The translations under genes were made by a program, and so were the position numbers. The notes below the pieces were generated by a model that saw nothing but the letters and a program-made list of their open reading frames with translations, ran no database searches and was not told the DNA's origin. Shown here piece by piece: positions 17,669 to 61,110 of a stretch of 64,000 nucleotides of DNA. How positions within the stretch are numbered: the first letter of the stretch is position 1; every line of letters starts with the position of its first letter. Source of the DNA: Agromyces rhizosphaerae (lineage in GTDB: Bacteria; Actinomycetota; Actinomycetes; Actinomycetales; Microbacteriaceae); NCBI RefSeq assembly GCF_027925245.1, contig NZ_BSDP01000001.1, forward strand, positions 1,922,001 through 1,986,000. The letters run 5' to 3'.

Positions 17669-17732
17669 CCGGCCAGTCCGCGGCGCAGCGGCCAGTCGTG
17701 CACGGCTGGCCCGCGCGACGCAGACTGGCCGG
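17669..17732. repeat. Nested palindromic repeat, GGCCAGTC family, copy 1
   Basis: In the divergent gap between the STAND gene and purM, CCGGCCAGTCCGCG (17669-17682) pairs with CGCAGACTGGCCGG (17719-17732) with one mismatch. Enclosed is a second palindrome, GGCCAG (17690-17695) and CTGGCC (17706-17711) around CGTGCACG. Copies with the same two-tier plan occur at 42742-42805 and 61050-61110. Their conservation between unrelated gaps argues for a repeat family rather than a local terminator. Confidence 0.85.
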
Positions 17733-39207: not shown

Positions 39208-39214
39208 CGCTCCC

Positions 39215-39248
39215 GCCGCGGGGCCGCCGAGCGCGTCGGCCCCGCGGC
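39215..39248 (+). terminator. Terminator hairpin after the RND gene
   Basis: GCCGCGGGGCCG (39215-39226) pairs over 12 bp with CGGCCCCGCGGC (39237-39248), 8 bp after the stop codon. It precedes a separate, larger nested palindrome at 39266-39329. Confidence 0.78.
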
Positions 39249-39265
39249 ATCCGCTCGCCCTCGTA

Positions 39266-39329
39266 TCGGCCCGTCGAACTCACGCGGGCCCGCGCTGCAG
39301 CGCGGGCCGCTGCGAGTTCGACGGGCCGA
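39266..39329. repeat. 64-bp nested perfect palindrome
   Basis: The outer arms TCGGCCCGTCGAACTC (39266-39281) and GAGTTCGACGGGCCGA (39314-39329) match over all 16 bp. They enclose a perfect 22-bp palindrome (39287-39308) centred on CTGCAG. The core CCCGTCGAA of the outer arm recurs in the tandem elements at 50861-50990. A separate terminator already follows the RND gene, so this element is not needed for that role. Confidence 0.85.
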
Positions 39330-39370
39330 ACGCGTCTGGGAGAATCGTCGTGCGAGTGAAGGGGGTCGCC

Positions 39371-40314: not shown

Positions 40315-42648
40315 TCAGCCCATGCGGGCGGGCTCGCGCTCCTCGCGCATCGCCTCGGGCCGGCCGCCCTCGCGGTCGAGCACGGCGCGGGTCGACGCCT
40401 CGGGGCGCAGGTCGAGGCGGCGCAGCAGCTGCGCGTTGACCGCGACCACCACGGCCGACGCCGACATGAGGATCGCCCCGACCGACATCGGCAGCACGAA
40501 CCCGATCGGCGCGAGCACGCCCGCCGCGAGCGGCACCGCCACGAGGTTGTAGCCCGCCGCCCACCAGAGGTTCTGCTGCATCTTGCGGTACGACGCGCGC
40601 GAGAGCTCGATCACCGAGAGCACCGAGCGCGGGTCGGACGAGGCGAGCACGACGCCCGCCGACGCGATCGCCACGTCGGTGCCGGCGCCGATGGCGAGGC
40701 CGACGTCGGCCTGCGCGAGCGCTGGGGCGTCGTTCACGCCGTCGCCGACCATCGCGACGCTGCGGCCCTCGTGCTGCAGCGTGGCGACGCGGTCGGCCTT
40801 GTCCTCGGGCCGCACCTGCGCGAACACGCGGTCGATGCCGAGGTCGTCGGCGACCGCCTGCGCCACCGGCTCGGCGTCGCCCGTGATCATCACGACGCCG
40901 ATGCCGAGCGCGTGCAGCGCGTCGATCGCCTCGCGCGACTCCTCGCGCACCTCGTCGGCCAGCGCGAGCGCACCGACGACCTCGCCGTCGGCGACCACGT
41001 GCAGCACGGTCGCGCCGCGCGCGGCCCAGTCGGCGGATGCCCCGAGGGGCTCGAGCCCGTGCTCGTCGAGCATCGCGGGGCCGCCGACCCGCACCGTGCG
41101 GCCGTCGACCGTGGCGCGCACGCCGACCGCCGGCGCAGACGAGAAGTCCGTCGCGCGCGGCACGTCCACGCCGTGCTCGTCGGCGTGCGCGACGATGGCG
41201 CGGGCGAGCGGATGCTCCGAGTCGGCCTCCGCCGCTGCCGCGAGTGCCAGCACGTGGTCGGTGTCGTGACCGTCCGCCGCAGCGGCATCCGTCACCGTCG
41301 GCTCGCCCTTCGTCAGGGTGCCGGTCTTGTCGAAGAGCACCGTGTCGATGGTGCGCATCTGCTCGAGCGCCATGCGGTCGGTGACGAGCACGCCGCCCTT
41401 CGCCGCCCGCTCGGTCGCGATCGAGACGACGAGCGGGATGGCGAGGCCCAGCGCGTGCGGGCACGCGATGACGAGCACCGTGATGGTGCGCACCACGGCG
41501 TCGTCGGGGCTGCCGACGAGGGTCCAGGCGATCGCCGTCAGCACCGCGGCGCCGAGCGCGAACCAGAACAGCCAGCCGGCGGCGCGGTCGGCGAGGCGCT
41601 GCGCGTGCGAGCTCGACGCCTGCGCGTCGGAGACGAGTCGCTGGATGCCCGCGAGCGCGGTGTCGTCGCCGACCGCGGTGACGCGCACGCGGATCGCGGT
41701 GTCGGTCGCGACCGTGCCCGCGACGACCGTGTCGCCCGGAGCGCGCGAGACCGTGGTGGACTCGCCCGTGATCATCGACTCGTCCATCTCGGCCGTGCCC
41801 TCGGTGACCTCGCCGTCGGCCGGCACCCGCCCGCCCGGACGCACGACCACCACGTCGCCGACCGCGAGGTCGGCGGGGGAGACCGTCTCGGTTCCGTCGT
41901 CGGTGACGCGCTCGGCCTCGTCGGGCAGCAGCGCGGCGAGCTCGTCGAGGGCCGACGACGCCTGCATGATCGAGCGCATCTCGACCCAGTGTCCGAGCAG
42001 CATGATCACGATCAGCAGGGCGAGCTCCCACCAGAACTCGAGCTGGTGGTCGAGGATGCCGAGGCTCGCGCCGAGCGATGCGAAGTAGGCGACGGTGATC
42101 GCGAGGCCGATGAGCAGCATCATGCCCGGCGACTTCGCACGGAGCTCGCCCACGGCGCCGCTGAGGAAGGGCCAGCCGCCCCAGAAGTACATGACGGTGC
42201 CGAGCGCGGGCACGATCCAGGCGATCGGTCCGGTCGTCGGCACCTCGTAGCCGAGGAGCATCGCGAACATCGGGCTCAGCGCGACCGTCGGCACGGCGAG
42301 CACGAGCATGATCCAGAAGAGGCGGCGGAACTGGCCGACGTGGTCGCCGTGCCCGCCGTGGCCGCCATGCCCGCCGTGGCCCGAGTGCCCGGCGTGCATG
42401 TCGTGGCCGCCGTGCATGTCGTGCCCGGCGTGGGCATCGGCATGCGCAGCGTGGTCGTGGCCCTCGTGGCCCTCGTGGCCCTCGTGGCCCTCGTGGCCCT
42501 CGTGGCCCTCGTGGCCCTCGTGCCCTGCGTGGTCGCCGTGCATGTCGTGGTGCTCGTGCATGTCGTGGCCCGAGTGACCGGCGTGGTGCTCGTGCCCTGC
42601 GTGGTCGTCGTGACCGGTGCCGGACCCGGGCTCGTGTGTGTGCGCCAT
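40315..42648 (-). CDS. P1B-type heavy-metal ATPase, copper class, His-rich N-terminus
   Basis: A 777-residue P1B ATPase. Residues 3-110 are extremely His-rich, with seven tandem GHE units. The core has TGES, the transmembrane CPH motif (CPHALGLAIPLV, about residue 393), phosphorylation DKTGTLTKGE (about 435) and GDGVNDAPAL. CPH rather than CPC and a His-rich tail instead of CxxC domains are features of the CopB/P1B-3 class that exports Cu or Ag. ATG 42646-42648 has a GGGAG site. A CsoR-like operator lies 25-41 bp upstream, consistent with copper control. Confidence 0.93.
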   Translation of the reverse strand: MAHTHEPGSGTGHDDHAGHEHHAGHSGHDMHEHHDMHGDHAGHEGHEGHEGHEGHEGHEGHEGHDHAAHADAHAGHDMHGGHDMHAGHSGHGGHGGHGGHGDHVGQFRRLFWIMLVLAVPTVALSPMFAMLLGYEVPTTGPIAWIVPALGTVMYFWGGWPFLSGAVGELRAKSPGMMLLIGLAITVAYFASLGASLGILDHQLEFWWELALLIVIMLLGHWVEMRSIMQASSALDELAALLPDEAERVTDDGTETVSPADLAVGDVVVVRPGGRVPADGEVTEGTAEMDESMITGESTTVSRAPGDTVVAGTVATDTAIRVRVTAVGDDTALAGIQRLVSDAQASSSHAQRLADRAAGWLFWFALGAAVLTAIAWTLVGSPDDAVVRTITVLVIACPHALGLAIPLVVSIATERAAKGGVLVTDRMALEQMRTIDTVLFDKTGTLTKGEPTVTDAAAADGHDTDHVLALAAAAEADSEHPLARAIVAHADEHGVDVPRATDFSSAPAVGVRATVDGRTVRVGGPAMLDEHGLEPLGASADWAARGATVLHVVADGEVVGALALADEVREESREAIDALHALGIGVVMITGDAEPVAQAVADDLGIDRVFAQVRPEDKADRVATLQHEGRSVAMVGDGVNDAPALAQADVGLAIGAGTDVAIASAGVVLASSDPRSVLSVIELSRASYRKMQQNLWWAAGYNLVAVPLAAGVLAPIGFVLPMSVGAILMSASAVVVAVNAQLLRRLDLRPEASTRAVLDREGGRPEAMREEREPARMG
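42460..42522. repeat. Seven 9-bp tandem repeats in the ATPase gene
   Basis: On the plus strand the unit ccctcgtgg repeats about seven times in perfect register. It encodes the GHE repeats of the ATPase N-terminus on the minus strand. Perfect nucleotide identity between units indicates recent slippage-type expansion. Copy number could vary between strains and change the number of His metal ligands. Confidence 0.85.
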
Positions 42649-42741: not shown

Positions 42742-42805
42742 CCGGCCAGCCTTCGTCCGGTCGGCCAGTCATGCACGGCTGGCCGGCGCGACGCGGACTG
42801 GCCGG
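42742..42805. repeat. Nested palindromic repeat, GGCCAGTC family, copy 2
   Basis: The right outer arm CGCGGACTGGCCGG (42792-42805) and the inner hairpin GGCCAG (42763-42768)/CTGGCC (42779-42784) match copy 1 closely. The left outer arm (CCGGCCAGCCTTCG, 42742-42755) has decayed. It lies between the ATPase promoter and the Nudix gene. Confidence 0.82.
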
Positions 42806-48948: not shown

Positions 48949-48984
48949 TTGATGCGTGTAGCGATACGCGATACACTTGTTCAG
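48949..48984 (+). promoter_or_regulatory. higBA promoter and candidate HigA operator
   Basis: TTGATG (48949-48954) and TACACT (48972-48977) are spaced 17 bp, a near-ideal promoter. GTGTA (48956-48960) and TACAC (48972-48976) form an inverted repeat across the spacer, and GCGATAC is tandemly repeated at 48961-48974. Transcription would begin near 48984, which is the toxin's GTG start, so the transcript may be leaderless. Confidence 0.7.
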
Positions 48985-49262
48985 TGATCGTGAGCTTCCG
49001 CCACAAGGGGCTCGAAGCCCTGTACTGGACCGGTTCGAAGAAGGGAGTCCAGCCCGCACATGCTCCGAAGCTCCTGCGCATCCTCGGCGTGCTCGACGTC
49101 GCCCAGTCGCCGGCCGACGTTGCGATTCCGGGATTTCGGAGCCACGAACTGAAGGGCGACCTCGCCGAGCACTGGTCGATCTGGGTGAACGGCAACTGGC
49201 GGGTCACGTTCCGATTCGTCGGGGCGGATGTCGAACTCGTCGACTATCAGGACTATCACTGA
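48984..49262 (+). CDS. higB: HigB-family RelE-like toxin
   Basis: A 92-residue mRNA interferase of the HigB branch of the RelE/ParE superfamily: MIVSFRHKGLEALYWTGSKKGVQPAHAPKLLRILGVLD, then IPGFRSHELKGDLAEHWSIWVNGNWRVTFRF, with the catalytic basic and Arg residues in NWRVTFRF. It begins with GTG and is followed 14 bp later by its HigA antitoxin, the order characteristic of HigBA. The promoter suggests a leaderless start. Confidence 0.92.
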   Translation: MIVSFRHKGLEALYWTGSKKGVQPAHAPKLLRILGVLDVAQSPADVAIPGFRSHELKGDLAEHWSIWVNGNWRVTFRFVGADVELVDYQDYH

Positions 49263-49276
49263 CGAAAGGAGTGGAC

Positions 49277-49558
49277 ATGATGAAGCACCCCCCGCACCCC
49301 GGGGAGATCATCGGGGAAGACGTGCTGGGCGAGCTGGGGCTGACGGTCGCCGAGGCCGCGGCGCGCCTCGGCGTCTCGCGCGTGACGCTGAGCCGCGTGA
49401 TCCACGGGCACTCGGGAGTGAGTCCGAACCTCGCGGTGCGCCTGGAGCGCGCCGGCGTCGGCACCGCTCGCGCGTGGCTCGCGATGCAGACGAACTACGA
49501 CCTGGCCCGCGAGCTCGAGAGCCGCGACCACGAGGTGCTCCCGCTCGTCGTCGCCTGA
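49277..49558 (+). CDS. higA: HigA-family antitoxin (XRE DNA-binding)
   Basis: A 93-residue helix-turn-helix antitoxin. It opens HPPHPGEIIGEDVLGELGLTVAEAAARLGVSRVTLSRVIHGHSGVSPNLAVRLERAG, the HigA/VapI-type XRE fold, with a C-terminal AWLAMQTNYDLARELE helix that binds the toxin. ATG 49277 follows GAAAGGAG. It should neutralise HigB and repress the operon through the inverted repeat at 48956-48976. Confidence 0.93.
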   Translation: MMKHPPHPGEIIGEDVLGELGLTVAEAAARLGVSRVTLSRVIHGHSGVSPNLAVRLERAGVGTARAWLAMQTNYDLARELESRDHEVLPLVVA

Positions 49559-61049: not shown

Positions 61050-61110
61050 GGCCAGTCTGCGGTGCTCGGGCCAGCCGTGCAGGGCTGGCCGGCACGCCGC
61101 GGACTGGCCG
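61050..61110. repeat. Nested palindromic repeat, GGCCAGTC family, copy 3
   Basis: GGCCAGTCTGCG (61050-61061) pairs with CGCGGACTGGCC (61098-61109) with one mismatch. Inside lies a 22-bp near-palindrome (61069-61090) with GGCCAG/CTGGCC arms, the same order and spacing as copy 1. Base changes in one arm are partly matched in the other (TCTGCG versus CGCGGA), which supports a paired structure. Confidence 0.85.

Follow-up and report, generated by a model that had tools for sequence, protein, structure and literature searches.

Dispersed palindromes of bacteria are usually ascribed to RAYT-driven REPs or to terminators. A REPIN consists of two REPs in inverted orientation, each REP being its own hairpin. 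Inverted REP pairs are described in the available text of PMC3733652 and PMC6006769. According to the available part of PMC3733652, REP/BIME sequences of the GTAG and CGTC super-families are short, many-copy, intergenic palindromes in mostly convergent or downstream positions, and in these respects they are like the elements that we report here from Agromyces. The CGTC families likewise have no dedicated transposase in the text available (PMC3733652). However, compared with the REP/BIME sequences of the same text, the Agromyces elements keep a 6-bp word at 19 bp in each arm, with the words swapped between classes, and they have neither a GTAG foot nor a Y1 transposase. The word actinobacteria does not occur in the main text of PMC3733652 as far as it was available. 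REPINs with RAYT, as presented in the accessible parts of PMC3116915 and PMC8049555, share with the Agromyces elements the paired inverted units, the within-genome population and the presence or absence among relatives, whereas each Agromyces element is one nested palindrome rather than two hairpins, and Y1_Tnp was not found in 14 genomes.

The elements of this study come from a 3.6-Mb Agromyces genome, labelled G000. The preliminary description had likened them to REPINs and had noted that no RAYT was visible. The second point held, as Y1_Tnp (PF01797) was found at E <= 0.001 in 0/14 genomes including G000, nine of which carry GGCMMG elements and a further two have different words with identical spacing; the search was positive in 5/14 control genomes. 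Since no Y1 (RAYT-type) transposase was found in these genomes, the elements are not REPINs. The likeness also failed on structure, because each arm of the single palindrome has two direct copies of the word. In an alignment of 15 copies with their flanks, neither GTAG nor CGTC was seen by eye to be conserved beside the stem foot, which is CGGCCAG. The elements are REP-like in distribution (many intergenic copies with a convergent and 3' bias) but do not show what defines a REP or a REPIN. Neither a RAYT-driven REP nor a terminator fits well here. Among the papers listed in searches of the open PMC set, none was seen to describe elements of this kind, be it in Agromyces, Leifsonia, Microbacterium or Microbacteriaceae as a whole.

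Architecture and word classes of the elements

The window is the whole stretch of DNA that was analysed, 64,000 nucleotides long (bases 1922001-1986000 of the single 3,607,789-bp contig of G000). Three dispersed copies with conserved order and spacing had been reported in it. These are real, and their word geometry is identical: GGCCAG, GGCCAG, CTGGCC and CTGGCC start at 0, 19, 35 and 54 bp in each. The element is 60 bp long and has four half-sites GGCCAG oriented > > < <, with start-to-start steps of exactly 19, 16 and 19 bp. When four GCCAG/CTGGC words within 75 bp were searched for, the same three places were the only ones in the window. Their spans from outermost word to outermost word are listed in Table 1; the coordinates first given were 0-2 bp wider on each side. 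The outer stem CCGGCCAGTCyGCG had been assigned to all three copies. The nested architecture was confirmed, but the left outer arm of the second copy is CCGGCCAGCCTTCG. A fourth window element with another word, GGCCCG, had been missed and was found with a covariance model for further copies, built from 15 class A copies of G000.

Table 1. Elements in the window, with word positions, neighbouring genes and state of the same place in relatives
Feature	Position	Strand	Word starts	Neighbouring genes	Relatives
Class A element	17671..17730	.	GGCCAG at 17671, 17690; CTGGCC at 17706, 17725	Divergent: DUF4062/AAA protein (-) and AIR synthase-like protein (+)	Same place empty in G015 and G030
Class B element	39268..39327	.	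GGCCCG at 39268, 39287; CGGGCC at 39303, 39322	AcrB-like transporter gene and gene without Pfam match, both +	Class B element also in orthologous gap of G056
Class A element	42744..42803	.	GGCCAG at 42744, 42763; CTGGCC at 42779, 42798	Divergent: P-type ATPase (-) and NUDIX (+)	G030 and G056 shorter by net 78 and 77 bp; rest of gap alignable
Class A element	61050..61109	.	GGCCAG at 61050, 61069; CTGGCC at 61085, 61104	Both on -: arginine deiminase and BTAD/AAA regulator	G030 orthologous gap not alignable

Pfam searches with ten window proteins indicated that the genes adjoining the four copies are unrelated to one another. Among the window genes, the P-type ATPase gene (40315-42648) encodes a long histidine-rich HEGHEG tandem stretch near the N-terminus. 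At 48984-49558, a HigB-like toxin gene is followed by an HTH_3 gene, and the two are likely a type II toxin-antitoxin pair.

The elements are more frequent in G000 than chance would give. With up to 3 mismatches, the four-word GGCCAG pattern matched at 16 places and its reversed control at 2. Fourteen of these are exact, one has 2 mismatches and was counted as class A, and the remaining place (3 mismatches) overlaps an element of another word class. The wider pattern GGCMMG-N13-GGCMMG-N10-CKKGCC-N13-CKKGCC gave 28 exact copies, which is above the bound of about ten per genome that had been set, and 29 copies at up to 1 mismatch against 0 in the reversed control. Three word classes are present in G000, namely A (GGCCAG), B (GGCCCG) and C (GGCACG), together with mixed elements. 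Many elements are longer than four words: additional words run outward in the 19-bp register, and arrays with three words per arm occur. The outermost word is often the palindrome GGCACGTGCC, which is sometimes common to two neighbouring elements. Adjoining one class B element, from G000 2051402 onward (L183), a tandem repeat of about 33 bp was observed that is missing in the orthologous gap of G030.

The word distances were analysed in G000 and in three relatives. In the fetched regions, gene identity of G000 was 92.5% to G030 (26 genes) and 91.9% to the uncultured Agromyces MAG G056 (21 genes), whereas G015 was about 89% identical to G000 over the same set of genes. In loci that, G015 excepted, were mostly picked for containing elements, the distance between GGCMMG words of the same orientation peaked at 19 bp, with 143 cases in G030 and G056 (second-best 56) and 69 in G000 (second-best 19). 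Facing words lay 16, 35 or 54 bp apart and back-to-back words 15 or 34 bp apart. The inner gap of > 19 > ... < 19 < quartets was 10, 29 or 48 bp (10 + n x 19) in 77/84 cases in G030 and G056 and in 39/40 in G000, in loci picked in the same way. In 195 kb of G015, both the 19-bp peak and the quartets were absent. These results demonstrate a real and unusual family of intergenic palindromes in which the spacing, not the sequence, is constant.

Word conservation and a possible protein lattice

We examined how words and spacers change between position-matched copies. The test pools 10/22 orthologous comparisons (element identity >= 0.70) and leans towards conserved words because most G030 and G056 regions were fetched for containing elements; in it, non-degenerate word positions changed in 1/176, M/K positions in 8/88 and spacer positions in 100/391 (words against spacers, p = 4e-17). 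The flanks of these copies differ in 399/2629 positions; one long gap with an uncalled reading frame gives half of them (66/1304 differ), and 333/1325 differ without it. In the 12 comparisons left out, the words differ at class switches (e.g. 13/32 at site 11) or align badly. Within G000, class A copies deviated from their consensus at 2/360 word positions against 121/540 spacer positions; these copies were found via their words, though up to 3 mismatches were allowed and only a single class A copy showed any.

Since the sequence is free to change and the spacing is fixed, the constraint points to a protein. We therefore propose, with about even confidence, that the elements may be half-site lattices for a putative oligomeric DNA-binding protein, gained as blocks at gene ends. 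Such a sequence-specific protein would bind with one monomer per half-site. The monomers would lie head to tail every 19 bp in each arm and would take opposite orientation at the centre, 16 bp from start to start. The word that is read would vary by lineage (GGCCAG, GGCCCG and GGCACG; CGCCAC, GGAGGTC and further words elsewhere) and the spacing would stay. New arrays would arise in intergenic DNA, mostly past the ends of genes, as extra blocks of about 80-180 bp (four comparisons gave net 78 to 183), and they would then be retained because their half-sites are bound. This proposal starts from direct observations: the elements share one geometry and fall into word classes, they lie between genes with a bias to 3' ends, relatives have empty sites, and words are conserved between copies matched by position. 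To these it adds the putative protein, a presumed oligomeric state and presumed selection on binding.

BldC is an oligomeric regulator that binds direct repeats head to tail. The operators of the BldC type are like the elements of this study in their evenly spaced direct half-sites of variable number, but the Agromyces elements are far more numerous, have an inverted centre and lie at gene ends, not at promoters. If the polymerising-protein reading is true, it would be a class of bacterial DNA-binding lattice hitherto undescribed. If the protein is found, its paralogues and the matching words in sister species would form a natural series on the co-change of a protein and dozens of its sites. 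Clustering of 729 neighbour proteins gave no convincing partner gene family recurring beside the elements across genera; there was only one 5-genus and one 4-genus cluster, and their nearest members mostly lie at least hundreds of bases from an element. An HNH-type reading frame, which looks like the DUF222/13E12 family, was also considered as a partner gene. It lies in a stretch of 2.0-2.7 kb in the gap of G030 (L196) and G015 (L246) that is orthologous to G000 1821990, and G000 and G056 have palindromic elements there instead. This candidate was rejected, as no 19-bp arrays were seen at its ends in G030 and G015.

Distribution, gain or loss, and class switch among relatives

At up to 1 mismatch, the GGCMMG form was found 29 times in G000, 31 times in G030 and 24 times in G056. 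Of the other 57 Agromyces genomes, 56 had none and G015 had a single inexact one; with the reversed control, only G016 among all 60 was hit, once. The form is thus present in 3/60 Agromyces, which speaks against a protein lattice, since its role is therefore dispensable in the genus. Among 398 sampled Microbacteriaceae genomes, 12 had exact matches, in 7/85 genera. In five of these genomes the match is the only one, and such single matches are near background because the reversed control also gives 1-2 matches in 8/398 genomes. The clear carriers belong to four genera: G122 (29), G000 (28), G321 (8), G119 (7) and G239 (5).

A scan of genome_contigs returned 108 stretches, and 80 among the matches listed were examined as loci. 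The matches listed include Plantibacter, Cryobacterium, Leifsonia, Compostimonas, Naasia, a Propionibacteriaceae MAG and one Actinomycetota MAG with many copies, and among them the spacer sequences vary from genus to genus. The single matches from distant taxa are probably due to chance; several fall within genes. Because words and spacing were preset, the family and genome_contigs scans show breadth and not the range of geometry.

The range of geometry was read from a word-free scan, with periods of 12-29 and up to 1 mismatch, that covered the window, 195 kb from G015 and eight further Agromyces genomes at 100 kb each. Period 19 ranked first in three of these: the window, G041 with 4 loci in its 100 kb, and G042 with a single locus. 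The seven other genomes had none at 19, with lone matches at scattered periods or nothing. The words at period 19 in G041 are GCGCCAC, GGAGGTC and GGAAGTC. The CGCCAC pattern at 19 bp occurs at 8 places in 4/60 Agromyces genomes (reversed control 0). Five of these places have an inner gap of 5, two have 15 and one has 11; the first two values are about one helical turn apart. G042 (L283-L287) also has long palindromes of the type CCCGACTTTCATGAAAGTCGGG, at offsets 33108, 59717 and 65926 of the joined stretch. They have a 9-bp internal period and are another Agromyces palindrome family.

We compared the gaps between relatives. Of 19 gaps in G030 that are orthologous to exact-element gaps of G000, 11 have an element (9 exact and 2 with altered geometry), 7 have none and one is not alignable. 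G015 has no element in eight recovered gaps whose G000 counterparts hold elements. Empty sites in relatives, which had been anticipated, were thus seen in G015, G030 and also G056. Relative to G030, G000 has four blocks of extra DNA, at 1299930 (net 101 bp), 1964744 (78 bp), 1939671 (130 bp) and 1417516 (183 bp), which mark class A gains in G000 or losses in the relative. Against the 14 exact class A copies of G000, G030 and G056 have one each in which all four GCCAG words keep this spacing, and G030 has one further class A element with altered spacing. In several gaps, different species have elements of different word classes. At G000 gap 1370668, G030 has a class C element (inner gap 9) in place of the class A element, so that all four words are of another class, as a concerted word switch would leave. 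In the gap orthologous to window 39208-39355, G030 (L192) and G015 have an inverted-repeat family of another kind, with GGTGCGCAAA...GTGGT in both orientations. By eye it seems to have two copies, and it occupies the place of the class B element of G000 and G056.

A bolder extension of the protein lattice, which we advance tentatively, is that a family of polymerising proteins with a 19-bp pitch may have changed its recognition word repeatedly across Microbacteriaceae, and that the genomes may have responded with the gain or conversion of entire sets of arrays at gene ends, the pitch staying fixed.

The ends of Tn5053/Tn402 contain several transposase sites in 19-bp repeats. Their likeness to the elements is one of geometry only: direct repeats of about 19 bp lie in each end and the ends are mutually inverted, but the Agromyces elements have no internal DNA, and a transposase gene was not seen. 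A transposon-like origin is nevertheless the main rival to the protein lattice. The elements would be non-autonomous mobile elements made of two transposon ends joined tail to tail, each end forming one arm and containing two direct transposase sites 19 bp apart; a non-Y1 transposase would mobilise them, and the conserved words would reflect recent activity and not use by the host. The empty sites in close relatives, the patchy distribution across the family and class A itself, common in G000 and rare in G030 and G056 as after a recent spread, are in favour of this origin. We consider it rather unlikely, however, as the words stay fixed in position-matched copies and a shortened transposon would not need a fixed inner gap. 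In addition, inspection by eye of the empty-site alignments, whose boundaries are blurred by 8-11% divergence, revealed no evident target-site duplication. No transposase was recognised by eye in the window gene list, from which ten proteins were run against Pfam, no exact element match was found in viral_contigs, and one class A copy had no BLAST match in phages and plasmids. Since spread and binding are not mutually exclusive, a transposon origin and the proposed binding could both be true. If a transposase is found instead of a binding protein, it would account for a class of small elements that has been overlooked in high-GC Actinobacteria.

Gene ends, stem pairing and chromosomal position

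Genes were called with a simple purpose-written codon-usage gene caller. None of the 28 elements of G000 or the 27 of G030 (55 in all) overlapped a gene, in agreement with an intergenic, multi-copy system beside unrelated genes. In gaps of 100-1000 bp, 20/44 gaps with elements were convergent, compared to 9/111 without (p = 4e-7), and in tandem gaps the elements lay nearer the 3' end (p = 6e-4). Four of the 44 element-bearing gaps were divergent. Two of the four window copies also lie between divergent genes, so that the copies are not all downstream of genes as ordinary terminators.

This placement would suit RNA hairpins at gene ends, acting as terminators or as stabilisers of mRNA 3' ends, and the predicted hairpins of the four window copies are strong (-49.5 to -61.8 kcal/mol, z -4.3 to -8.8). 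Pairing in register was far above that with slid partners in class A and in class B or mixed copies, which is expected of any symmetric site. However, covariation was not above shuffles in 31 class B or mixed copies, and class A was alike; RNA covariance is thus an unlikely basis of conservation in Agromyces. The choice of the base A or C within the word is often mismatched across the stem, and in the 31 copies, which were picked by eye, the inner M position was unpaired in 17 and the outer in 7, so that half-sites appear to be chosen irrespective of pairing. A terminator needs neither 19-bp word repeats nor three-word arms, some element gaps are divergent, and the window had no Rfam match at gathering scores. 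RNA hairpins are for these reasons an improbable explanation, and recognition of each half-site by a protein would explain the Agromyces data better than base pairing. The strongest point against protein recognition comes from G122, of the same family but another genus, in which the arms of 35 copies covary strongly (74 cells against 40 +/- 4.6; 0/500 shuffles). This fits a folded strand or a symmetrising process, and sub-families with a palindromic consensus could also yield it.

parS and matS are sites that mark chromosome domains. A terminus-domain (matS-like) reading had come from the raw coordinates and was dropped when dnaA was found to lie at 1.59 Mb. Of the clusters, 17/18 in G000 (p = 1.4e-4) and 19/21 in G030 (p = 2.2e-4) fall in the chromosome half closest to dnaA, two results that are not independent because many sites are shared by descent. 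That the elements mark the origin half in the manner of parS or matS is very improbable, as nearly all other Agromyces lack the GGCMMG form and the 35 copies of G122 are evenly spread, the origin half having 16 of their 30 clusters (p = 0.86, calculated with a rounded genome length).
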